DNA from: Trichinella spiralis
Lineage: Eukaryota > Nematoda > Enoplea > Trichinellida > Trichinellidae
Direction of reading: 5' to 3'
Assembly: GCA_000181795.3 (NCBI GenBank)
Contig: CM012953.1
Coordinates: forward strand, 10,966,267 to 11,030,266
DNA: 64,000 nt
Shown in pieces: positions 882-55,801 of this stretch. A program made the translations under genes and the position numbers. Each line of letters begins with the position of its first letter. The first letter of the stretch is position 1. The notes below the pieces were generated by a model, which saw only the letters and a list, made by a program, of their open reading frames with translations, was not told the origin of the DNA and searched no databases.

Positions 882-2653
882 TCAGCCTTTGAATTTGTCA
901 GGAGCCGGCCCTCGTCCGTACGATTCCATCTCACGCCGTCTCTGGACGAATCTCCAGACCAACGCTTGAGCGGTGGTCAGGTTGTTGGTGACAGCGCGAC
1001 GGAATCGCATTCTGTTGTTATACGGTGGCAGACGAAAGCTGGGCGGCGGACTGGTGAACGCCCTGTCGCTGTACTTCTGCCATACCGTGGACCGGTGAAT
1101 TGGACAAGAGCGCGGGGTCGCAGGGGGAATCACCCGAATATTGTCCACATCCACCGGTTCTGGGCTCGTCTGCCGCTGCTTGGTCTCTGCAGTATCGACG
1201 AGCAGCTCGACCGGTGCCGCCTTCAACGCCAGCATACTCTGTCCGCGTATGTCTAGCACGGCCGACGGCTTTTCAGCGAGCAGCTTGTCGATGTCGAACG
1301 ATGGTCTGTCCGACAGAATGCAGCTTTCTGGAAGCGACGACCCCGACGGATTGGTCGGGTCGAACAACACCACTATGACACTGATGTTGTCGGATCGCAG
1401 GCGACTGCACCGGATCAACGCCTGCCTGGTTATCCACCGAGCATGATTTTTCGGCAGGGTATAGTTCTGAAATTGGCAGTAATCGATCATTTATTACCAT
1501 TGTTGATATCAGGGAAATGGAAATGTTGAAAAGTAATTTATTTTCACCTTTGTTTTGGGCGTTTGGTCAGCTTTTTCTTTCCACTCGCCACAGTTGATGA
1601 TGTCGATGACAGTTTGGGCGTCGAGAATATTCCACAAGCCATCCGAAGCGATCACCAAACAAGCGTCTTCTTTTTCCAACTGAATGACGCTGACGTCTGG
1701 CTCTGGACTGACGACATACTGTTTCGACGATGGATTGTATGACCACAGATCTCCTGAAAAAAATAAAACTTCAGCACAGTTGTTCGATCGGCCAGCTGGC
1801 CTGTTCTTACGGTAAAGACATACGTACCTAAAGATCTGGTCAAATTTAAAAATGGAACCTTCACGACGGCTGGCGTTTCGGTTGAAGTGCCCGCATTGGG
1901 AACCGCCGGTTGGTTCCAGATGACACGTTTCCCGCTGTTCGTGTCCGCCACTTCTCCGCCCACTTCGGCGAGGCGCTTCTTCTCGGCCGGCGCATCCGGC
2001 TTGTGATCCACAGTTAACTTCACCGCGCCGACAGATCCGTCTGAAATTACAAATCAAAATGGTAAAGCATAACAGCTCCTGAATCAGTCCCAGTCGAAAC
2101 TTCTACCTCGATTCCTTTTGCCCAGCACAACAGTCGAATCTCCAACGTGGCCAATGTAAATTTTGTTCTGTCGAACGAAAGCCACACTGGCAGTAGTACC
2201 GGACGTGCTTGGCAAGCCGGAGGATGTTTGAGGCCATTTTTCTAAAACAACAAAGTAGCACATCGTGAATATTTGCCATAAATGCAGCAGTAGCAACCAA
2301 TTCTCTATAAACTCTCGAAACTTACTGATTTCTTTGGTCATTTGTTCGTGGGTTTGCAAAAAGCCGTCGGTGATGGCTTTCAGCACGTCGTTGTCATTTT
2401 TCGACCAGAACATTTTCTGCTGGGTGATGTTGTCGTGCAGATGCTTTCGTGCAAATTCGCTAGCCTCGGCACCTCCGTGACCGTCGAAAATGCCGAAATA
2501 AGCATAACCGGCACGATTTCTTGTAACTTTGGTACAGCAACGAATGCTGAACCTGTCTTCCATGTATTTCCGAGAGCCGCGGCAAGAGCAAGTGCTGATG
2601 CTCAGATTGTTGGACGCAGCCGACGACTCTGGACTACTCTTTTTCGAAGGCAT
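882..2653 (-). CDS. PP2C-family Ser/Thr phosphatase, PPM1D (Wip1)-like
   Basis: Several exons join in frame on the minus strand. I chose ATG 2651-2653 (protein start MPSKKSSPES); an in-frame extension to about 2713 exists but lies across an AG that looks like a splice acceptor. Order of motifs: CRGSRKYMEDRF near the start, the metal-binding FDGHGGAEA, GTTASVAFV, IGHVGDST, RSLGDLW (restored by splicing at about 1760-1830), ASDGLWNI and finally RSDNISVIVV. All metal-coordinating aspartates of the PP2C fold are present. The GSRKYMED opening and insert pattern fit metazoan PPM1D, a nuclear phosphatase that damps stress and DNA-damage kinases. After the catalytic domain there is a Pro/Arg-rich tail of about 120 residues. 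The gene is convergent with the AAA ATPase gene. The function at this locus is inferred from the family only. Confidence 0.85.
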
Positions 2654-3877
2654 TTTCCCTTGCTGACAGTACATTTTTCGACGACAAGCACAAATAGTTA
2701 AACTGATGAACAAGAACAGGGAAAAGCAACACGCCGATACTGAAACACCGAAGCGTACAATCGAACCGTACTGCTCGATGGTTGATGCTTAACTGAAATG
2801 GAAACCAATGCACCGCATGTACAAATACTATGGCGAAAACAATGACCACAGTGACACAGAAATGTGAAACAATGAAAGAAAGGACAACGATCACGGTGAC
2901 CCAGAGGAACCGAACTGAAACAATGGACTATTTGAGTTCAATGGAGCAGTACCGACTTAACGGATTTGTGAAAACAAAAATTCCATCATTTCTCTTGACA
3001 ACTTGATTATCGCTAATCATCTCAATTCGCGTAAGCTTACCCCCTTTCAAGCAGTACAGCTGAAAGCACGGCAGAACAAGTGACAAGATGAACAAAGGAA
3101 CGAAAATCCAACGAAAATATAGATGACCTTGTTCACGAGATTATATTATTACTTAAAATAACACCTAATTATTATTACAAACGTTGGGGCGAAACGAAAA
3201 CGAAAGTTCAGAACGATCAATTTAATTACAGTATGACATGGGACATCTTATTTGTCAATAAATTGCAACATTTTCTTAATTGTTGAAAATATTTCTTTCG
3301 AATAAATTTAAATAATATTCAGAAAATTTAATCATACTTATCTTGTCTGACTTCTTCATGTGCAATGTGATGCATTTTTTTACGAAATTATTGCTTGGTA
3401 TTTATTATATTGGCAAAATAATCTTGCAAATCTCTTTCTTTTCTAAAAATATTTCTGGAATAATAATAAATGTAGAGGAATTTCCGGTTTATTATTTCAT
3501 TTTTGATAAAACTTTTTTTTTGAATTTCACCACTTTATTAAGAAATAATACTTGCGCACTGTAATACAGCATACACTTAATTGTTCAACGTTTGTAAAGG
3601 AGATCGGTAGCTGTTGTGACAAACTGCATGCACTTTTTGCTCAGTTAGATGGAATACGCGTCAAATAGTTTCTGAGAGCAAAGTTTTATAGAACGGAAAA
3701 TTTAAAAATTAACTTGGCTCAAAAACGGAGCCACAACGTGAAATTCCTTTGAATTGAAAAACGTTGAACTTTCTTTTCAACACTCATAACGCTTTGTAGT
3801 GAACAAAATTGTTTATTTTCAATAATCAAGCAAAACTTCAAAAATACTTTCATATTACAAAGATATGCAAAATCATA
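2654..3877. other. Intergenic, no gene recognised
   Basis: AT-rich stretch between the PP2C start and the ARPC3 stop codon. It should contain the PP2C promoter and the ARPC3 3' untranslated region. Open frames here are short and show no family motif. Confidence 0.6.
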
Positions 3878-15279: not shown

Positions 15280-18146
15280 TTATTCTCTTCGCTTTTTCTT
15301 TGACGAATTCTTTCCAGCACGCTGTAATTTTGCAAATCCATCATTAGCGGTAGCAACATCACCAAATACACTTTTAGTAACTGTGGAAGTTGTGCTTTCC
15401 TGGTTCACTGCTCTGAAATTGTTCCAAATAACAATCAAATTTTGATAAATCAAAAATCATGCATCACGACAATCACAATTGTCAAATTTGAATATAAAAC
15501 CAGCAAAAAAATCGAAACTAATTACTGGTTTGGAATATTAAATTTTGGACGCTTCTTTTTGTTCTCAATTTCAGAAATTGAATCCTCCTCTTCAACACTA
15601 CTTGTTGACCCGAACGAACAATGATAAGCATCTTCATCACCACTGTTCACCGGGTTCCGTCGTCGTTTGCACTTGCCGCCTGTATCTTGAACACTGTTTA
15701 ACATGTTTGATAAATCATTTTCATGAATTTGCTTATTCTCCAATATGTTCTTCCTTAAATGATAATTCTTCATTACGTTAAAATATATGAACATTTTTTT
15801 AATTACACTTTTCAAAATTTAAATTTTATGATATATATAATTTTAAAAGAACAATATACTGAGCAATAATTTTTATTATATTTTCCATTAAAATAATAAA
15901 AATTCAATTAAACAAATGATATATATATGTGCGTATATGTATGTATAGGCAACAAATGTTGCTCTTCAAAAATTTTTTCCAGAAAACATAAGTACAATTC
16001 TTTTTTCAGTTGAAAGCTTAAAAATTAATTAAATAAAATTGTAATAAATCAAAAAATTAATAACTGCTTTTTTTAATTTTTCAAAGCAAATAAAAAATTT
16101 AAACTCAGAAAAATCTTATCAATATTTGCTGTTTGTTTGAACAAATGAGCAGTCAATTGAGAAGAAAGTGAATAAAGAAGCCGAGTGAATATAGAAATAT
16201 CAGTGTGAAAAGGTTACCGAAATAATTGAGTATTCGAAAATCAATAAAATTATTGTAATTTAAAGGTTAAAAATGAAAAAGTTTTTGCACTTTGAATGAA
16301 TTACAAATAAATTAAAAGAAAATAATTAATGCTATTAAGTAATTCATCAAAAATCTATCTTGTCACTTATAATTTTTTTTAAGTTGAAATGGTCAATTTT
16401 TAAAGTAACGCTAGTATTTTAAACACGAATAATATTCTATTTAAGAAAATATTATTTAAAAAGCATAATTTATGCCATTTCTCAATAAAAAAATTTCTAA
16501 TGCTCAAACTTACGTATTGTTACGTTTCCGACAATTATCACATAACCAATAACAGGCAGCGTCATTTTTAGAATAGCATGGATATGGCGGTTTCATGCAC
16601 CTTCAACAAACAACCAACATCAAGTAATTAACATCAAATTAATAATAAGAATAAATATAGAAAACAAACTCACAACATATGATAAAGTCTCTCACAACTG
16701 AAGCATTGCAAATCTGGCGTGTATTTGCTTGTTGTTTCGTGACACGCTGCACATTCCGTAACCGATTCAGACGAACCTTGATCGCCTTAAACAGAAGAGC
16801 ATTAAAAAAATAAAAAAACAATAAAAAATTATGCAAACCTAATTCATGTGGATAAATCACATTTTCAAAATTGGCTATTGTCAGTAGACTGCACAGTTTT
16901 AGCAGTTTTAATTCTTCTGGACGAACATACTTTTTTATTTCGGCCTAAAAACAGCGTAGACGTCAAAATAAAGCAAGTAAAAAATTTGTGCAAACAAACA
17001 ATTTACTTCAGCTTGATCAACACTTTGACTGATGCCTATTAAGCGGTTTTTTAAACTTTTCTCGGCCAATTTCATTTCAGCAATATAATTGGCAAAATCG
17101 GATGTCATGCTCATCTGAACTGGTTGCTTAAATGAATCCAGATTAATCAGACTAGCAGCATAATTATCATCCCATTGCTGTTCAGTCATATCGGTCAAAG
17201 CGATCGACTTGTATTTCATCAAAGCTGTTGCGTGGGCACTAGAAGTAATCGGCCTTTGAATAACTTCCGCGTCACTACTGTCGCTAATTTGAAGCTTAAA
17301 TTTCTTCTTCAAATAAGCTTTGTAAACTTTTGAAGCCTGATTACAGGCCAAAGTAGTGCGCTCGTCTGCAGTTCGAGCAAAATAAAGCCTATCAACTGCT
17401 CCAGCCAATGCACTGTGAATAATTCGTGTGCTTTTACCTTCCGATGAGCAATGGCTTAAACAATGAATATCTGAATAATTGCCAAATTCAACTATCCCAA
17501 AACGGCTTGCACAGCTGGCGTGAAATGACTCCTTACACAATTGCACCACACATTTGATAGTGGCGCCGGATACAGACTCGCTAATTTTAGAACATAAACT
17601 ACAACGAGCATCGAGAAAGGTGCTCCTCACTCTGTTCAACGAGACCGGCCAAGACAACGTCTCCGACTTGTCGTGCACCAAAGGGTTACAAAGGGCACAA
17701 ACCGCATGGACCCATTTCATTTGGGTTGTCAGTACAAACGCTCCTTCGCCCTGGGTTGGGCACAATTCACAAAAGAGCATCTTTCGATTAACACGCAACA
17801 AACATGGTTCGCAGAACCACATTTTATCTCCACTTGCAGTTTGCCAACGCCGACATCTTTCCTTTCCATAGCAACGTTGGTGCACCCCCAGACCGCACAT
17901 TGAACAAGTGCGAAACACTCCATCCGATTTAAGCTCTAAACAGATGTTGCACACTTGGTACGGTAGATCAACTTGCAAGCCATTTTCAATGTGCTTCAAC
18001 ATGATATCAGTCAACATTCGAGGTATTTCAGATTTAGCAAGCTCTACAACATCAGTATCAGATAAAACAAATTTCAATAACCCTTAAAAATACTTACTGG
18101 AAGAATTCATCACTCCGATTAGCTCATCTATCACTGTATCAGACAT
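15280..18146 (-). CDS. PHD-finger chromatin protein, PHF14-like
   Basis: Starts at ATG 18144-18146 (MSDTVIDELIGVMNSS). A 54-nt intron leads into a long exon, further exons lie near 16.96-16.85, 16.78-16.68 and 16.60-16.51 kb, and the last two are near 15.75-15.53 and 15.41-15.28 kb. The third intron from the end is about 760 nt. Domain order is a first PHD finger (CNICLELKSDGVFRTCSMCG to FCEPC), an extended PHD (CELCPTQGEG, WVHAVCALCNP, CSLCSKI, FHASCASRFGI), a helical linker, and a third PHD (CAACHETTSKY to WLCDNC). The C-terminus is acidic then basic and ends KKKRRE. The PHD-ePHD-linker-PHD order fits PHF14, which reads histone H3 tails, rather than JADE or BRPF proteins. It is much shorter than vertebrate PHF14. 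Nuclear location is inferred. Confidence 0.8.
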
Positions 18147-19133: not shown

Positions 19134-19779
19134 TTATAAAAAATCTTCAATTTTCATCTTGCTTCCTTTCAGAAAACGAATAAAATTCTTGTCACTGTTT
19201 TCCTAAAATCATTAACGATTAAACAAATCATATTAAATGATACAATAAAAACAATACTTGCCTCGATAATAGGTTTCATTTTTTCAACATATTCATTTTT
19301 ATAATTTTCCTTTAATTCATGAAGTTTTTCTGCTAATTCGTCTTTGACCTTATTCTTTAAAAATCGAAGTAGTTCTAAAAAGAAGCAAATGTATATACGT
19401 TCACTTATCTATATAATCTGCCGGTTTGAGTAAAATATACATTACCATTTTCCACAGGTTGATGAGATATCGGTTCCGGTTCTGGTGCTGCTTTCGGTTT
19501 CGGTACTGTTTTAGGTTTCGGTGCTGCTTTAGGTTTCGGTGCTACTTTAGGTTTCGGTGCTGCTTTAGATTTCGGTACTACTTTCGGTTTCGGTGCTGCT
19601 TTGGGTTTCGGTGCTGCTTTGGGTTTCGGTGCAGCTTTGGGCTTCGGTGCTGCTTTGGGATTCGGTGCCGCTTTGGGTTTCGGTGCTGCTTCGGGTTTCG
19701 GTGCTGCTTCAGATTTCGGTGCTGCTTTTGATTTCGGTGCTACTTGCGGTTCAGATTTCGTTCTTCCTCTTTTAACCAT
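19134..19779 (-). CDS. Small Lys/Pro/Ala hexapeptide-repeat protein, function unknown
   Basis: Begins at ATG 19777-19779 with MVKRGRTKSEPQ. Residues 13-102 are then 15 tandem hexapeptides, mostly AAPKPK with E, S, N and V variants. A first intron follows the end of the repeat exon (donor GTAATG). The second coding exon gives a charged helix (ELLRFLKNKVKDELAEKL). The last intron appears to be GC-AG (GAG|GCAAGT ... TTTTAG|GAA), and the protein ends with GSKMKIEDFL and TAA at 19134-19136. The total is about 180 residues, very basic, with no signal peptide. The Pro/Lys/Ala composition resembles histone H1 tails and other DNA- or RNA-associated disordered segments, but there is no globular domain to confirm it. 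I do not recognise the family. Confidence 0.6.
19474..19743 (-). repeat. 18-bp tandem repeat, 15 copies, in coding sequence
   Basis: Fifteen adjacent 18-nt units encode the hexapeptide array of the Lys/Pro/Ala protein. The unit length is a multiple of three, so copy number can change without a frameshift. On the plus strand the same DNA gives long open frames rich in Gly/Phe or Arg/Cys, which are shadows of the repeat. Confidence 0.9.
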
Positions 19780-25253: not shown

Positions 25254-26201
25254 ATGAAAATGGCTAATGATACCTTGCAGTCGATGCTGGTTGCGCATGA
25301 ATCGGTGCTTGTCGAAAGTACATCTGCAGTAGTAGTACTGATAGGCGTGGTGATAATTGCCATCAGTTTACTTGGAGTTTTGGTGATACTCAAATCAAAA
25401 GAGCTTCGAAACATCCATTTTTTGACCATGTGCATTTTGTGCTTCAACGACGCCGTGGGTGGTGCTAGTTCTGTTGAATTTGAAATTTGGCAAATATTTA
25501 GCGTCTACTTTATGCAAGGGACAGTCGAAATTGCTTACTGTTGCCAACGTTTATTTCTCCTGCATACGGTCCAGACGAACGACGTTATGTTGGTTGCCGT
25601 TCTATCCATAGAACGAACCGTTGCAATTTTTCAGCCATCATTCTACAGAAATGTTTCACCGTGGAAATTTCCAGTGCCACTTTTGTTTGCTGCATTCATG
25701 TTTTCATTGTCTATGTCCATAGTGATGGTCATCGACGGATTTCAGCAGAACAGAAGTCTGATGCTCTGCGGCAGCGACGACTGTTGGTCTTCGACCATCA
25801 CGTCCACTACGTTCCAATATTATTTTATTATAGTCAGTGTTGTTATATTGCTTTTCAACGGGATTTGCCTCGTCTATGTCAGTTGGAAAGCTCGTACCTA
25901 TCGTAAACGCAATTTGTTGAACATCTTCCGTCTAAAGTACAAAGAAAGTGTACGCCTGATGAAAACGTTTGGCGCTATCATCGCCGTGATGCTCATCTTG
26001 CAGATTTTTGGACGACTGTTTCGCATAATTTCTTTGTCCACTGATAGTATCCGGGTACGCTTCTCGCTTGGCAACGTATTTCGAGTGTTGAACAGCTTGT
26101 GTGCAATTAGCAACTTTTTCATCTTTTTACTAACTTCTGACAGTTTTCGCTTCACTCTCAGAAATATGTTCACCAATCACAGTGTTGTTGCACCTTTTTG
26201 A
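25254..26201 (+). CDS. Intronless seven-transmembrane receptor, rhodopsin-like orphan (nematode serpentine type)
   Basis: A single uninterrupted frame of 315 codons. A second in-frame Met at 25260 is an equally possible start. Seven hydrophobic segments can be drawn: about residues 23-45, 55-80, 88-120, 137-160, 183-208, 237-260 and 275-298. The DRY position at the end of helix 3 reads ERT (LSIERTVAIFQPS). Helix 7 reads LCAISNFFIFLLTSDSF, without a canonical NPxxY. An amphipathic helix 8 (FRFTLRNMF) follows. Cysteines before helix 3 and in extracellular loop 2 (CGSDDCW) could form the usual disulfide. This pattern is seen in nematode chemoreceptor-like or neuropeptide-receptor-like families. 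Ligand and exact family are unknown. A MITE begins 4 bp after the stop codon. Confidence 0.75.
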   Translation: MKMANDTLQSMLVAHESVLVESTSAVVVLIGVVIIAISLLGVLVILKSKELRNIHFLTMCILCFNDAVGGASSVEFEIWQIFSVYFMQGTVEIAYCCQRLFLLHTVQTNDVMLVAVLSIERTVAIFQPSFYRNVSPWKFPVPLLFAAFMFSLSMSIVMVIDGFQQNRSLMLCGSDDCWSSTITSTTFQYYFIIVSVVILLFNGICLVYVSWKARTYRKRNLLNIFRLKYKESVRLMKTFGAIIAVMLILQIFGRLFRIISLSTDSIRVRFSLGNVFRVLNSLCAISNFFIFLLTSDSFRFTLRNMFTNHSVVAPF

Positions 26202-31320: not shown

Positions 31321-34300
31321 ATTAGGTTATTGAAACTAATTTTTTTTCAGTTCGATTAAGATATTAATATCAATGTAATAATTAAATTCTCATTATTTGT
31401 TCATCCTAACTTATGTTGTAGGATAAAAGACACTATCTCCTTGGCTTACACAGCATGGGCATGAAGGCAGTTAAAAATAGATTATTTTATAAAGAACGCC
31501 GTCTTCTAACGGATTTTAATGAAAAATGACGAATGCAGAAGTAATGAGCTGAGCGCTGTCATCTCTAGAACATCGAACCTTCCGCTTCTGTGCTTCACAA
31601 TCTGAATGACATTGATTCTATAGCAATCTTTCCTCAGTTGCTTTACTTACTAATTTTTAGCAGCACTTCGTAGTGAAATGACGAAAATGGAAAATTTGCC
31701 TTTGAAAAATCAACAATCTTTCACCAACAATTTTAATTTATTCACAAATGGCGTCAGCTTAGTTGATTAATAAATGAAGAGATGAAAATTAAAGATAGTG
31801 AAACTGAGCAAAGCGACTATAATATAAGCATGTAAGCCATGGTTACTGGTATGCATAAATGATGTGTATTTTAGCCTCCAGGTTGACAACGTATGGACGT
31901 GAATCGCTTTTGGAAATAACAATAATTCTTCACTGTGGACCTTACTTATCACTGTCAAACTTCCCCATAAAAGTTCAGTGTGTAATGAAACAATTGCAAA
32001 AATATTGATAATGAAAAAATATATACTGTAAATCAAATGAAACGAAATGTTGAAAATAAATTATCTGATCTTCAAGTTCTCCCAACGGTAAACAACTCGT
32101 TGGAAATTTTAAAAAAAGTCCCTAGCCCTTTTCTCAAGGTCAACCGATATTTGTTTTAACACAACAACAAGCAGTACAACTGGGGTTAAATTTTATTCAC
32201 CCGATGACAGTAGTTAGTGTTGTATTTCTGCCATGATCAAAGACTCGGTAGAAGTGATAATTGTTTATTCGACACACTAACTTGAACACACACACGCTGT
32301 ATAAATTCGTAACTGACTGACTATGTTATCTATGAGCTACAGTAAATGAATTAGAAGATGATCAGGTTACATTATCAATAATTTTGGATTCTATTAATTC
32401 GATATACAACATCAATACACAACACCAATACACAACAGTTAGAATCAACGAGAACATGAAGAAACAAATAATTCGAAAAGCAACTTCTTCACAACGCTCT
32501 CTTTCTTCCATCGACTACTACTTTTTCCTCTATCTTGTTTCTTATATATAGCGCCAGGACGAGTTACCTGCGTGGTACATCATCGAGGTATATTCTGTGC
32601 CGTTATTTTCCTTTCGACCGTAGTAGGTGCGGCTGCTTCGTCTCCACAGCCCCAATTCCCTGCTTATTCTAGGCGCCTGTTCTTCCACAGCTGTTGTTGT
32701 TTTCTTGTCCACAAATGATGGTTAGGATCTGAGTTCTCTTAGCTCCTGTGATGTCACTTGAAACTCCTAACACACATGGTCGGGCACTATACTGTTGCGC
32801 AACCAGCTGAGCTGACATCCTTCAGGGTCTGACAATGGATGCTATCTTCGAATTGTATACTTGTGCGCAGCATGTATACGTGCCTGACGTTCCAGTAACT
32901 GGTCGCGGTGCCGTAATTTCGACAGTGAAAAGTTAGAATTTGAAACTATTGAAAGGTACACTTTTGAATTTATGAAAATTGTTTGAAGAAAATATTTTGA
33001 CCACATGAAATATTTTAGCCATTCATAATTGAAAAATATTAGCTAATGAAATACCAATTTGTAGAGACCAATAAAAACATTTAGATGAGACGGAATCATG
33101 CTAAGAGTAATTCAAATCAATGAACAAATGAATCCATGAGTTCTTATTATTCATTTCCTTGATTAATAAATAAATTCTTTTACTAAGTTCAGTGTCTGTT
33201 TTCCACGAGATCATCACGTGAGTAAAGTAGGTGGGCTGTGAAAGTAAGCTTCAGAAAGAAAAGAAGAGAAAAAAAATACTAATGAACCTGAACGCAGGTA
33301 GCTATTTGTTACAGTAATTTTAATTTTCTACATTTTACTGTTTTAACCAAAGCTTGTTCAGCATTGCTAGATTTTATTTCCATTTTTTGTAGATCATGCC
33401 CATTATTTCAGTTTTCCATTTTTTGTGCTCATATGAGTTGAAAATCTTAAATTCGATAAATATTTTTACAAACAAATAACATTGTTCACTTAAAGTTTAG
33501 CAGTGCTTCCAATAAATATATATAGGAATAAATTTTACGTAAAATTATCGCAAAAATGGTAAAATTTATGTACAGCTTAAAACCATTAGAGAAGTTATTT
33601 TGATAGGCAAGTTAATTAAGTCTTAAGGATAAATGAGCAGTCAGTTTTATATAAATAATACAATGGAGAGTTTCATAAGTTAAATATTATCATATATAAC
33701 AAATAATTTCGCATACTTTTTTGTAATTTACTACTGGTATGCTTTAACGTTAACTGTAAATTAATTTCATGATTTAATGGAAATTACCCAATTTATAATT
33801 ATTTTGTGCATAAAAATTTGTTGCTTAATTTTAATTTAACGAAAGTTTTGATGAAACTAGAATAATGCGGATATAATTTTAAATTCAGTATTAAAATGCA
33901 TGAAGAAACTTACAGTAACAGTTCATTTTTTTGTGTAATATTTCATTGAATAATTAAATTTTGTTTTAAGCCATATTATTATTTGTCATATTGTTATTGG
34001 GTTATTATCTGACTTTTAGTAGAAAATATTTGAATAATCAAGTATATTTCAAAATTGTTCCTGAGATAAATTTACATACCGTATACATGACGAAGTTCAG
34101 TAAAGTTTTGTTGCGAGTAGGTGGCGGTTTTCAGTGAACTTTCATTTGCATGGCTCCTATTTGATCTCAGCGATTTTGATTGAATGAATTTTTTATTTTT
34201 CCTGCCTTTTTACTGCCTTGAGTCATTTTTTGTCATTTTGTTGTTTATTTTTTGCTGTTGAATTGTAAAGTTCTACTTTAAAGCACAGCAAGGTTTAAAG

Positions 34301-34391
34301 TAAATCACTTTATTGGACAGGTTTTAGTTTAAACATGTCTTTCATAGTTATATATTTCTTTGTAAAGGTAGTGCTTTTTAGTATAGTCACG
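31321..34391. other. Intergenic with an LTR-like fragment
   Basis: AT-rich apart from the 32.2-32.9 kb patch listed separately. A further patch at about 31430-31530 is open on the plus strand after an AG but leads nowhere I can follow. The final few hundred bases should hold the promoter of the CRAL-TRIO/GOLD gene. Confidence 0.4.
32190..32850 (-). mobile_element. Possible LTR fragment
   Basis: A GC-richer block. On the minus strand it begins near TGTCAGACCCTGAAGG, contains a strong TATA box (CTATATATAAG, about 32545) and then AATAAAC at about 32260, the order expected of U3-R-U5. The solo LTR at 41.8 kb shows the same minus-strand order and a similar GTGTGTGTTxxAGT segment before AATAAAC. 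The 3' boundary and target duplication could not be fixed, and no internal retroelement sequence is attached. Confidence 0.35.
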
Positions 34392-35552
34392 ATGGATGAA
34401 CAGGAGACGCCGCCATCGGAAAATGACCAAGTTCGGAAAGTGATAAGTTTGCCAATTCCGAAAGACGTGGGTACGGATTACAATTTGGAGCGCTGGTGGA
34501 AAGGTTGGCAGGGTGATTTGGAAAGAATCAAGGTGCATTTTGAAAGTTACATAATCAACAGAAGAGCAGCCGGTCTGGAAGATCCGGCTTTGATCGACAA
34601 CTTTTTGCAACATCCGGTAATCCGACGTGTATTACCTGTGGTGCGTATGTCTGTTAAACCGTTTGTCGTGAATACCAAAGACAACACAATTGTGGTGATT
34701 AATTGTCTTGGTAACATTGAACATCTAAAATTGGCACGAGTTTTGAAATCCGGTGAATTGTTGATGTATTATTTTGTTACGGCTGAGTATTTTTTCAAGC
34801 AGGTGCTTGAACAAGAACGTCGAACTGGTAAAATGTCCGGGGTTACATTGATTTATGATTTGTTCGGTCTGAAAGTGTTGGATTACCTAAATCCTTTCTC
34901 GGCAATAATGCAGATTTTCGCTCTGGGTTCGACAGTAATTCAAGAATACTACTGTGAATTGTTGACAAATTTGTTTATTATCAATCCGGGCCCTTTTGTG
35001 AAACTCGCTTTCACACTGGTCAAGTCGTTGTTGGTTCCACGTACGTTGCAAAAGGTTCGAGTATTGTCCGGCGACTCATGGAAAAGTAAACTTTGCGAGT
35101 ACGTTTCTGCCGACGCCTTGCCCGTTCAATTCGGCGGTACATGGACCGAAATTCAAGAAGGCATAGATCCTCTGACATGCTGCACGGTGAATACTCCAAT
35201 TCAGGAGAGTCTTTATTTTCAGCCGAAGCTGGTAAAAGAATATCATACTGTCTATTTGAAGCCTCGTAAATTGTACGAAGTTGACGTCCAGGTCCAGGCA
35301 GGCTCAACTTTATTTTGGCAGTTTTTTTGTACTGGAAAATTCACTTTCACCATTATCTATAAGAACAATGACGGAAACGATCAACCAGAATTGATGTTGC
35401 CACGTTTGGTCATGATCACCCCGATGGGTAGTGAAATGCCCGAAGAAGGTACGTTGCTATGCAAACGTACTGGAATATACACTATGGAGTTTGCTTCTGT
35501 TGGTAACAGTTATTTTTCCACACGGCTGGACTATGCTTATCAAGTTGAATAG
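34392..35552 (+). CDS. CRAL-TRIO and GOLD domain protein (SEC14-like)
   Basis: An intronless frame. I chose ATG 34392 (MDEQETPPSENDQVRK), giving 386 residues. An in-frame ATG at 34335 would add 19 mostly hydrophobic residues. The N-terminal helices (ERWWKGWQGDLERIKVHFES) match the CRAL-TRIO-N segment. The CRAL-TRIO lipid pocket follows (LLMYYFVTAEYFFKQVLEQE, GVTLIYDLFGLK, LFIINPGPFVKLAFTLVKSL). The last 110 residues form a beta-rich GOLD domain (LYEVDVQVQAGSTLFWQFFC, ending RLDYAYQVE). This architecture is that of SEC14L/CTG proteins, cytosolic or Golgi-associated phospholipid transfer proteins. The specific lipid is unknown. Lack of introns contrasts with most neighbours. Confidence 0.88.
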   Translation: MDEQETPPSENDQVRKVISLPIPKDVGTDYNLERWWKGWQGDLERIKVHFESYIINRRAAGLEDPALIDNFLQHPVIRRVLPVVRMSVKPFVVNTKDNTIVVINCLGNIEHLKLARVLKSGELLMYYFVTAEYFFKQVLEQERRTGKMSGVTLIYDLFGLKVLDYLNPFSAIMQIFALGSTVIQEYYCELLTNLFIINPGPFVKLAFTLVKSLLVPRTLQKVRVLSGDSWKSKLCEYVSADALPVQFGGTWTEIQEGIDPLTCCTVNTPIQESLYFQPKLVKEYHTVYLKPRKLYEVDVQVQAGSTLFWQFFCTGKFTFTIIYKNNDGNDQPELMLPRLVMITPMGSEMPEEGTLLCKRTGIYTMEFASVGNSYFSTRLDYAYQVE

Positions 35553-53100: not shown

Positions 53101-55801
53101 CTGTTGTACCATCTGAAATTAATGCTGAAAATGTGGAAAGTGAAATTTCGACCAATGATGAACCACAGCCGATTCAAGCTGAAGTTGAAACTGAAGTTCG
53201 AAAAAAAGAATTTTTTCTTTTCCATTTTCATTGTTGGTTTGTTTTGTTCATATTTTCAGATTCTCGTTGTTGATGATGATGAAGCACGTGATAAAGTTGT
53301 CGAAGAGCAGTCAGAACCTGTGTTGCTTGATGTTGTTCCTGAAAATCCCAGCATTCCGAAGCAGAATGTTGAACAGGAAACTTTCTCTGTTCCGAAGAAA
53401 TCGGCGAGAAAGTCGCTCACGGGTACAAGTGCAACGTTGCAGATTGATCGCATTTTTGAATTTATTTTATTCATATATCATTTATTTAGAAATTTGTTCC
53501 GAACTGACAACCAAAAAGCTTGAATTGCAAGCTGCGATGGAAGTTGGCCAACAGCCGAAGCTTCCAGAAGCGACAGCGGTGCAATTGAATTCAAACGATG
53601 ACAACAGGCTAATAGAAATAATTGAACAACCATTACCAAAAACAAAAGGTTTTATTGCATTGCTTGTTTGTACATATTTCAATTAATTATAATAATTTAC
53701 GTTTTCAATAAACAAATATAGATGGTGTTGAACAAGAAGTGAATGATCTGCCATCGATGGAGTTGGAAAATGTGGACATCGTTACTATTCCAGGTGAGTT
53801 GTATATTTGAAAAAAGAATTATAATAATTTATATTTTAAATAAAAAAGATGTAGCTGTGAATGAACCAAATGATGATCAGGCGTCGACAGAGATAGTTAT
53901 CGTTCAAGAGATGGACACTGTCTCCATTCCAAGTGAGTTGTATATTTGAAAAAGGAATTATAATAATTTATATTTTAAATAAAAAAGATGTAGCTGTGCA
54001 TGAATCAAATGATGATCAGGCGTCGACAGAGATAGTTATCGTTGAAGAGATGGACACTGTCTCCATTCCAAGTGAGTTGTATATTTGAAAAAGGAATTAT
54101 AATAATTTATATTTTAAATAAAAAAGATGTAGCTGTGAATGAACCAAATGATGATCAGGCGTCGACAGAGATAGTTATCGTTGAAGAGATGGACACTGTC
54201 TCCATTCCAAGTGAGTTGCATATTTGAAAAAGGAATTATAATAATTTATATTTTAATAAAAANNNNNNNNNNNNNNNNNNNNNNNNNNNNNNNNNNNNNN
54301 NNNNNNNNNNNNNNNNNNNNNNNNNNNNNNNNNNNNNNNNNNNNNNNNNNNNNNNNNNNNNNNNNNNNNNNNNNNNNNNNNNNNNNNNNNNNNNNNNNNN
54401 NNNNNNNNNNNNNNNNNNNNNNNNNNNNNNNNNGGGGCGGGGTATATTAGTATACAGGAGTTATACTCGCCGATTGCTAAACAATAATAGAAGATGCTGT
54501 GAAGGATACGAATGAAGATCAAGCGTCAGTCAGAGATAGTTATCGTGAAGAGATGGACACTGTCTCCATTCCAAGTGAGTTGCATATTTGAAAAAGGAAT
54601 TATAATAATTTATATTTTAAATAAAAAAGATGTAGCTGTGCATGAATCAAATGATGGTCAGGCGTCGGCAGAGATAGTTATCGTTGAAGAGATGAACACT
54701 GTCTCTACTCCAAGTGAGTTGTATATTTGAAAAAAAAATTATGATAATTTATGTTTTAAATAAAAAATTTGCAGCTTTAAACGAAACAAGTGGGGATTTG
54801 GCGTTGAGAAAGTTAGCTGCAAATGCAAAGATGAACATCGCCTCGAATTCAAGTAAGTTGTATATTTTAGAAAATGATAATAATTTATATTTTAAATTAA
54901 AAAATATAGATGGCATTGAACAAACGGAAGATGTGCCATCGACTGAGTTAGTTACAGTTGAAAGGAGCCATGACAACCACATCGTTGGTGAGTTGTATAT
55001 TTTTTCTAAAAGAATTATAGTAATATATATTTTAAATATAAAATTAGTAGATTTATATGAACCAAGCGGTGGTGTGTCATCGGCAGAATTGGCTGGAAAT
55101 GAAAAAATGGATGTAGTTGCCAATACAGGTGAGTTGTATATTTGAAAAAAATATTATATTTTAAATAAATAAATAGTAATAGATTTAGATGAATTACGTG
55201 GTGATGTGACATCGGCAGAATTGGCTGGAAATGAAAAAATGGACGCAGTCACCGGTTCAAATGCACTTGCTGTGAGAAATGAACAGCTCACTTCTAGCAG
55301 GCCAAAAAGAAATTTGAACAAATCGCATTCGAAGTTGAACTGTCCTTGTTGCGCAAATGGTACGAATCTTTGAACATTTGAGTTTATAGATATACATGTA
55401 CAGTTTGTATATTATATGCAGAGGGTAAAGTTGTTTCAGTTACTTCGGTCAAAGAAGGAGATTTGGTTTGGGCGAGACGTTCCATGCATGAAAGAAATTA
55501 CTGGCCGGCGAAAGTGTCGCTTTTGGTGGATAATACGTTTGCAATAGTGGAGATTTTTGAAATGCCACCCATCGAGATCCGCGTTGACGTTGAATTCATC
55601 GAACCGTTCAGGAATAGTTTTCGAAAGTACTACAATCCAAATAAGAATATGAAATTCCAGAAAGCTGTCGCTTTGGCTATTCTCCAGACCGAAGGGGAAA
55701 TTTACAGGGAGTATTGTGAAAAAGTCTCGAAAATGTGCAGCAGACTTATGTGCGATTTGCTTCGAAATAATCCAGCCGTAGCATCGGTGTGCCAACGTTG
55801 A
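50140..55801 (+). CDS. PWWP-domain protein with a tandem exon array, function unknown
   Basis: Exons: 50140-50252, 52453-52686, 52775-53195, 53260-53422, 53490-53648, ten visible short modules from 53722 to 55359 (the last extended), and 55422-55801. All join in frame with GT/AG borders. Exon 1, from ATG 50140 across a 2.2-kb intron, is the least certain. The N-terminal part has a Cys-containing basic region (RRLCNRLQRV, ILCVKCLNKM), then Lys/Pro-rich and Thr-rich low-complexity sequence. The array codes acidic repeats such as NEPNDDQASTEIVIVEEMDT. A CPCC motif precedes the final exon, which is a PWWP domain: EGDLVWARRSMHERNYWPAK, then a Phe/Tyr-rich helix bundle. PWWP domains bind methylated H3K36 nucleosomes and DNA, so a chromatin role is inferred. 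I recognise no named orthologue. Part of the array lies in an assembly gap. Confidence 0.75.
53722..55263 (+). repeat. Tandem exon-plus-intron modules (at least 10)
   Basis: Module exons at 53722-53793, 53849-53932, 53988-54071, 54127-54210, [gap], 54491-54574, 54630-54713, 54775-54852, 54910-54987, 55048-55128 and the start of 55177-55359. Lengths are 72, 84, 84, 84, 84, 84, 78, 78 and 81 nt, all multiples of three and all phase 1-1. Introns of 48-61 nt follow one pattern (GTGAGTTGTATATTTGAAAA ... TATTTTAAATAAAA..AG). The central copies have a 139-bp period and are nearly identical, while the outer copies are diverged. Confidence 0.92.
54263..54433. other. Assembly gap (171 N)
   Basis: A run of N inside the tandem exon array. 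The sequence just right of it (GGGGCGGGGTATATTAG) is unlike any module, so copy number and order here are unreliable. Confidence 1.

Follow-up and report, generated by a model that had tools for sequence, protein, structure and literature searches.

How a gene comes to hold a row of short, nearly interchangeable exon-intron units, and why the introns of such units resemble each other more closely than the exons do, are the questions raised by one locus of the nematode Trichinella spiralis. It lies in a stretch of 64,000 nucleotides (nt) of the 20-Mb contig CM012953.1 (assembly GCA_000181795.3, positions 10,966,267 to 11,030,266 of the forward strand), hereafter the window. The host gene, at ~50.1-55.8 kb of the window, ends in an exon for a PWWP-like domain, and upstream of this exon stand ten visible tandem exon-intron modules, at ~53.7-55.3 kb. 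We consider it probable that unequal recombination mediated by the introns, together with constraint on these introns or their homogenisation, lengthens an acidic spacer ahead of the domain by whole modules. An earlier note on this DNA had drawn attention to the array; its observation proved mostly right and its mechanism partly so.

The module exons are predicted from open frames and the splice-site pattern, which gives the following arrangement around the array:

53490..53648, plus strand: coding exon directly before the array, 159 nt, phase 1-1; one open frame, joined in frame to E1 and present in homologues
53649..53721, plus strand: intron I0, 73 nt, with a 5' end of its own; its 3' part was placed by local alignment to I7
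53722..53793, plus strand: module exon E1, type A, 72 nt
53794..53854, plus strand: intron I1, 61 nt
53855..53932, plus strand: module exon E2, type B, 78 nt
53933..53993, plus strand: intron I2, 61 nt
53994..54071, plus strand: module exon E3, type B, 78 nt
54072..54132, plus strand: intron I3, 61 nt
54133..54210, plus strand: module exon E4, type B, 78 nt
54211..54262, plus strand: intron I4, truncated by the gap
54263..54433, no strand: run of 171 N inside the array
54434..54490, no strand: 57 nt unlike the module, 42% GC (genome search)
54494..54574, plus strand: module exon E5, type B, 81 nt, read against E4 with the AG at 54492-54493
54575..54635, plus strand: intron I5, 61 nt
54636..54713, plus strand: module exon E6, type B, 78 nt
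54714..54774, plus strand: intron I6, 61 nt
54775..54852, plus strand: module exon E7, type C, 78 nt
54853..54909, plus strand: intron I7, 57 nt, a multiple of three with no in-frame stop
54910..54987, plus strand: module exon E8, type D, 78 nt
54988..55050, plus strand: intron I8, 63 nt, a multiple of three with no in-frame stop
55051..55128, plus strand: module exon E9, type E, 78 nt
55129..55182, plus strand: intron I9, 54 nt (48 or 60 nt with other AGs)
55183..55359, plus strand: exon E10, 177 nt, phase 1-1; it opens with a type E module of 78 nt, the rest being unique
55422..55801, plus strand: last coding exon, with the PWWP-like domain (Pfam E-value 0.019, below cut-off; AlphaFold2 model), ending in TGA

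Tandem Repeats Finder (TRF) reports a period of 139 bp at 53787-54262 (3.4 copies, 97% matches, score 903) and again at 54511-54767, which bears out the near-identical central copies described earlier. Ten short exons, the minimum in that description, are likewise recovered, all in phase 1-1 and 72-81 nt long apart from E10. The intron length given with them, 48-61 nt, is corrected here to 54-63 nt, and the term 'microintron' was too strong, the median intron measuring only 72-83 bp in four Trichinella annotations, so that small introns are normal in the genus (PMC11242134; this and the other articles cited below are drawn on as excerpts). That small introns are usual in the genus had been overlooked, as had the run of N and the stop-free state of I7 and I8. 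The phase-1 frame is the sole open frame in eight of the nine exons translated in three frames (E1-E4 and E6-E10), E7 being the exception with a second open frame, and six of the eight complete introns would bring in an in-frame stop if retained. The 3' part of I0 is similar to I7 and the start of E1 to E8, so that the ancestral repeat has its left end within I0.

In protein searches, the predicted protein is 97 and 100% identical to the T. spiralis proteins P0002 and P0013, and 58-86% identical to proteins of ten further Trichinella taxa. These homologues bear on the possibility that the array is partly an artefact of assembly, a suspicion invited by the 171 N and the odd 57-nt edge within it, by E5, which stays open with AG 54492-54493 as acceptor and has an internal stretch displaced by two compensating indels when set against the adjacent modules, and by the P0013 model, which has three B modules and then ends at the gap. 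The 57-nt stretch (54434-54490), whose only match in the genome is itself, is probably a poor contig edge. We nevertheless regard an artefact as very unlikely: the models of all 11 taxa predict such an array, with 8-14 units and with sequence differences specific to the lineage, and the P0002 model, which comes from a different T. spiralis contig, counts nine modules, type B accounting for four. What the run of N does entail is that ten modules are a visible count and not necessarily the copy number of the reference.

The two T. spiralis models differ in one further respect. In-frame acceptors lie 6 nt apart (AG-ATGT-AG) at 53847-53854 and at the same place in I2, I3 and I5, and P0002 and P0013 choose differently between them, gaining or losing two residues per module. 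This difference, with the symmetry of every module exon, would suit regulated exon skipping or a mutually exclusive choice of exons that yields isoforms differing in spacer length. Such regulation seems improbable to us: exon symmetry is expected from duplication alone, all 11 parsed gene models hold at least 8 modules in series, and in four introns folded one by one the RNA structure was unremarkable (z -0.98 to 0.90). Clusters of mutually exclusive exons are marked by intron RNA in which one docking site pairs with selectors; the folding result, obtained intron by intron, disfavours a conserved RNA structure within single introns.

The central observation concerns the older copies. Five old modules with complete introns (E1/I1, E6/I6, E7/I7, E8/I8 and E9/I9) were compared in 10 pairs, the first 6 and last 3 intron bases and all gap columns being excluded from the intron distances. 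Intron distance was 0.11-0.23, against 0.50-0.95 for the exons and 0.29-0.98 for exon third positions, and it was the lower value in all 10 pairs; the suggestion that the introns are at least as conserved as the exons is thus upheld by a comparison between modules. For the exons E1, E6, E7, E8, E9 and E10, synonymous divergence (dS) was 0.53-1.47 in all of the 15 pairs except E9-E10, where it was 0.23. Across these pairs the pooled proportions of synonymous and nonsynonymous differences were close (pS 0.48, pN 0.42), which indicates that residues are little constrained while length and frame are.

Drifted copies at both ends of the array retain the intron pattern, as had been claimed. Alignment scores exceeded all 500 dinucleotide shuffles in nine of the 10 old intron pairs (z 3.3-8.9), and a separate shuffle run covering nine of these pairs gave like results; by this measure of their sequence, the array introns are clearly related to each other. 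Raw identities of 79-90% overstate the conservation because AT-rich introns align well by chance. Percent identity is a poor test in such DNA, where shuffles average 71-74% after gapped alignment; intron conservation is less extreme than the raw identities, and composition-corrected distances are the fairer measure. For a rough scale from one gene, the thymidylate synthase genes of T. spiralis and T. pseudospiralis are separated by 42 silent changes over 924 nt (PMC4022200), by our own estimate from these figures ~0.2 per silent site: the old intron pairs lie at or below this level and the exon silent sites above it.

Two further features of the introns suggest why they have stayed alike. Conservation rises abruptly across the donor: it is 0.42-0.43 over the final 12 bases of the exon and 0.93-1.00 over the 12 bases that open the intron. 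Further into the intron, where register is lost, it drops to 0.72 and 0.63; near the acceptor, the 3' end is variable among old copies. Judged from the alignment, this profile looks like donor-side constraint combined with shared descent. At the same time, I1-I3 are 98-100% alike, whereas E1 and E2 are only 61% alike, which implies a recent exchange or duplication with its border at the E1/I1 junction. We think that constraint and exchange both act on the introns.

A purely functional account would go further, and hold that the introns are conserved because an extended donor block and an AT-rich pre-acceptor block form a splicing code for introns that have no pyrimidine tract. Conservation does begin at the first intron base and peak in the first 12 nt, the intron middle is freer (a deletion in I9, changes in I7), and the last 25 nt are A-rich with no clear pyrimidine tract. 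The final bases before the acceptor, however, differ among old copies, and the identity of I1, I2 and I3 is simplest as recent copying. Moreover, a search with the first 20 bases of the intron template, 2 mismatches being allowed, hits 11 places, of which 7 lie in the array and 4 elsewhere, compared with 4 hits for a reversed control. The template is thus apparently not a general signal of the genome, although I7 and I8, themselves introns of the array, also escape this search. We hold such a code to be a serious contender whose chances fall somewhat short of even.

Near-identical introns beside less similar exons might also recall introner elements, which are near-identical introns scattered through many genes of a genome. 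Repeated insertion of introner-like mobile elements is, in our judgement, scarcely credible at this locus, where the exons are themselves related and equal in length, and where searches of the 53-Mb genome returned no similar intron or module elsewhere. As no other locus with these introns was found, dispersed introners are disfavoured; a second locus with the same modules was sought as well, and matches in the 53.1-Mb genome were confined to this array. In schistosome micro-exon genes, exons are mostly under about 36 nt, and module exons of 72-81 nt and 177 nt do not belong to that class. A genome baseline of 140 kb, sampled as 14 stretches of 10 kb, yielded 36 TRF rows, all with periods below 60, from a script that does find the array in the window; this sample, three stretches of which contain long N runs (3983, 7138 and 7859; 18,980 bases in all), is too small for an estimate of rarity.

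Module number appears to differ between lineages in the gene models of 11 taxa, built on draft assemblies, which carry 8-14 units per array. Written as strings of module types, the arrays read as follows:

T. spiralis: A B4 C D E2
T. nelsoni: A B3 C D E2
T. britovi: A B2 C D E5
T. patagoniensis, T8 and T. nativa: A B2 C D E4
T9 and T. murrelli: A B2 C D E3
T. papuae: A B2 C D E A E
T. zimbabwensis: A B2 C D E A E A E
T. pseudospiralis: 14 units, 7 of them uncertain and three only 9 residues long

Module order is common to the taxa, and the type amplified differs by lineage: T. spiralis and T. nelsoni have multiplied B, the T. britovi group E, and T. zimbabwensis and T. pseudospiralis the E-A pair. 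The proposal that the acidic spacer changes length through genomic copy number is thereby borne out as far as these models go. In the 7 of 11 taxa compared, the mean similarity of B modules is 65-95% inside a taxon and 44-60% when encapsulated taxa are set beside non-encapsulated ones, a pattern that would be equally expected from independent duplication of one ancestral B module in each clade. The three short units of the T. pseudospiralis model (P0012) are consecutive, EIEVVTIP-like, and represent either tiny exons or a repeat within an exon.

A module classifier finds types A, B, C, D and E in both Trichinella clades, whose split is dated to ~21 million years (PMC4740406). In a module tree with few columns and many forks left open, from which the three 9-residue units were excluded, the C modules of all 11 taxa fall into a single clade, and so do the D modules (support 96/85 and 98/87).

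Taken together, we propose a unit of one phase 1-1 exon (~26 codons) and one intron of 54-63 nt. Unequal recombination or slippage between introns would add or remove whole modules with the frame kept, given that adjacent introns resemble each other and that no module exon alters the frame. Exchange of whole modules through the introns would also account for each lineage having amplified a different module with the overall order kept. The exons would drift fast, under constraint on acidity, length and frame and little on residues, and the introns would stay alike either as splicing signals under constraint or through homogenisation by the same exchanges. The outcome would be an acidic, probably unstructured spacer whose length changes in one-module steps. 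We put forward a bolder version only tentatively and think it rather unlikely, namely that the introns are the conserved part of the array, a 54-63 nt cassette serving as splice signal and as homology for recombination, with the coding sequence nearly free.

Several observations weigh against the main interpretation. The splice junctions are predicted from frames and site pattern; I7 and I8 are multiples of three and hold no in-frame stop, so that the frame alone does not require their splicing, and E7-I7-E8-I8-E9 (54775-55128) can be read as one open frame; the search tool shows an open frame of 149 amino acids there. The score of the I8-I9 alignment (15.0) does not exceed the best shuffle (15.5), and percent identity lies above every shuffle in only one of the 10 old intron pairs. 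The jump in conservation at the donor favours constraint on the introns over simple conversion. The two B modules of the T. britovi group have kept their own identities and correspond position for position, which points to episodic exchange and not to continuous homogenisation. The data from other species are predicted proteins, in which near-identical units may be collapsed and counts are perhaps low; the names of these models mostly fit the Illumina drafts of PMC4740406, to go by their taxon codes. Of the 32 units in the three non-encapsulated taxa, the classifier marked 9 as uncertain. For the domain that the spacer precedes, a search of the last exon against PDB by sequence gave no significant match (best PWWP2B, E 0.96), and AlphaFold2 was confident in one of five models, the one kept, with a mean predicted local distance difference test score (pLDDT) of 75 compared with 50-54 for the other four.

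That last exon scores 15.9 bits against Pfam PWWP (PF00855), under the gathering score of 25.6. The best PDB matches of its AlphaFold2 model are nevertheless PWWP domains, PWWP2B first, and the predicted fold consists of a beta barrel followed by a helical bundle; the PWWP domain expected downstream of the array is thus supported, at the level of the model, as a PWWP-like fold. It resembles the domains of PWWP2B, DNMT3B and HDGF-type proteins in predicted fold and departs from them in its sequence, which stays under the Pfam cut-off, and in having no relative outside Trichinella among the matches listed. PWWP proteins are characterised by binding to nucleosomes methylated at H3K36 or to DNA; the domain here presumably recognises methylated nucleosomes, and the protein is probably nuclear and chromatin-binding. 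The spacer ahead of it comprises 205-295 residues in the gene models. Acidic residues number 45-69 and basic ones 7-24 in 10 of the 11 taxa, the remaining one not fitting the counting pattern.

As far as the protein searches reach (at least 7994, 276 and 371 candidates scored), the gene appears restricted to Trichinella, although diverged orthologues may exist in other taxa. The source name of P0002 is 'Zonadhesin'; Pfam finds no zonadhesin-type domain in this protein, which leaves the name of a T. spiralis protein without Pfam support, and none of the eight homologues, out of 12, that were compared with Pfam has a match above cut-off. Literature combining Trichinella with PWWP yielded nothing on this gene, judged by title and start of abstract, and the array is not described among the literature matches listed.

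Arrays of this kind are known from other organisms. As in the Flag and Argiope MaSp2 genes of spider silk (PMC9779670) and the SmPoMuc genes, tandem exon-intron units are present here, as defined by frames and splice-site pattern, and the introns are at least as alike as the exons; the array belongs to this known kind. Silk introns, homogenised within the gene, have been proposed as the site of unequal crossing over (PMC9779670) and are more homogenised than silk exons (PMC2576457). In Argiope MaSp2, to go by the excerpt, the exons are homogenised too, whereas the old Trichinella exons have strongly diverged and the introns much less; the product, unlike silk, is a protein that is probably nuclear and whose acidic spacer is short. 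A parasite counterpart is offered by the SmPoMuc genes for mucins in Schistosoma mansoni, with a repeated short exon and flanking introns in variable copy number (PMC2576457), although they form a multigene family with units of ~1 kb, as opposed to 139-bp units at a single locus. In Cryptococcus CNN00420, new introns arose through copying of an intron-containing repeat (PMC2395259); two introns were gained there in one allele, compared with about ten units here and turnover in the gene models of 11 taxa. Intron multiplication by tandem duplication, the last claim of the earlier note, therefore holds in that the modules stand in tandem, but a 'direct view' of it was overstated because whole exon-intron units are copied and the mechanism has already been published (PMC2395259, PMC9779670). 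What stands out is the drift of old exons relative to introns, the lineage-specific choice of the amplified module and the probable chromatin-reader setting.

Elsewhere in the window, an 18-bp tandem repeat of 14.6 copies lies at 19484-19745, with a minus-strand open frame of repeated KPKAAP-like hexapeptides. Neighbouring coding stretches are:

2084-2788, minus strand: protein phosphatase 2C
16935-18083, minus strand: PHD-like zinc finger
25254-26201, plus strand: Srsx-type chemoreceptor
34299-35552, plus strand: CRAL/TRIO (Sec14-like) protein

For the genus, the array is a small natural series that allows the age of modules, the drift of exons and the conservation of introns to be compared directly; its gene models show no fewer than three amplifications specific to a lineage, in a genus whose two clades lie ~21 million years apart (PMC4740406). 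Existing long-read Trichinella data would allow a test here of what keeps repeated introns similar, splicing constraint or exchange. If selection holds the intron cassette while the coding sequence is nearly free, this would be a self-maintaining system, in which the spacer length of a chromatin reader changes in fixed steps across the genus.
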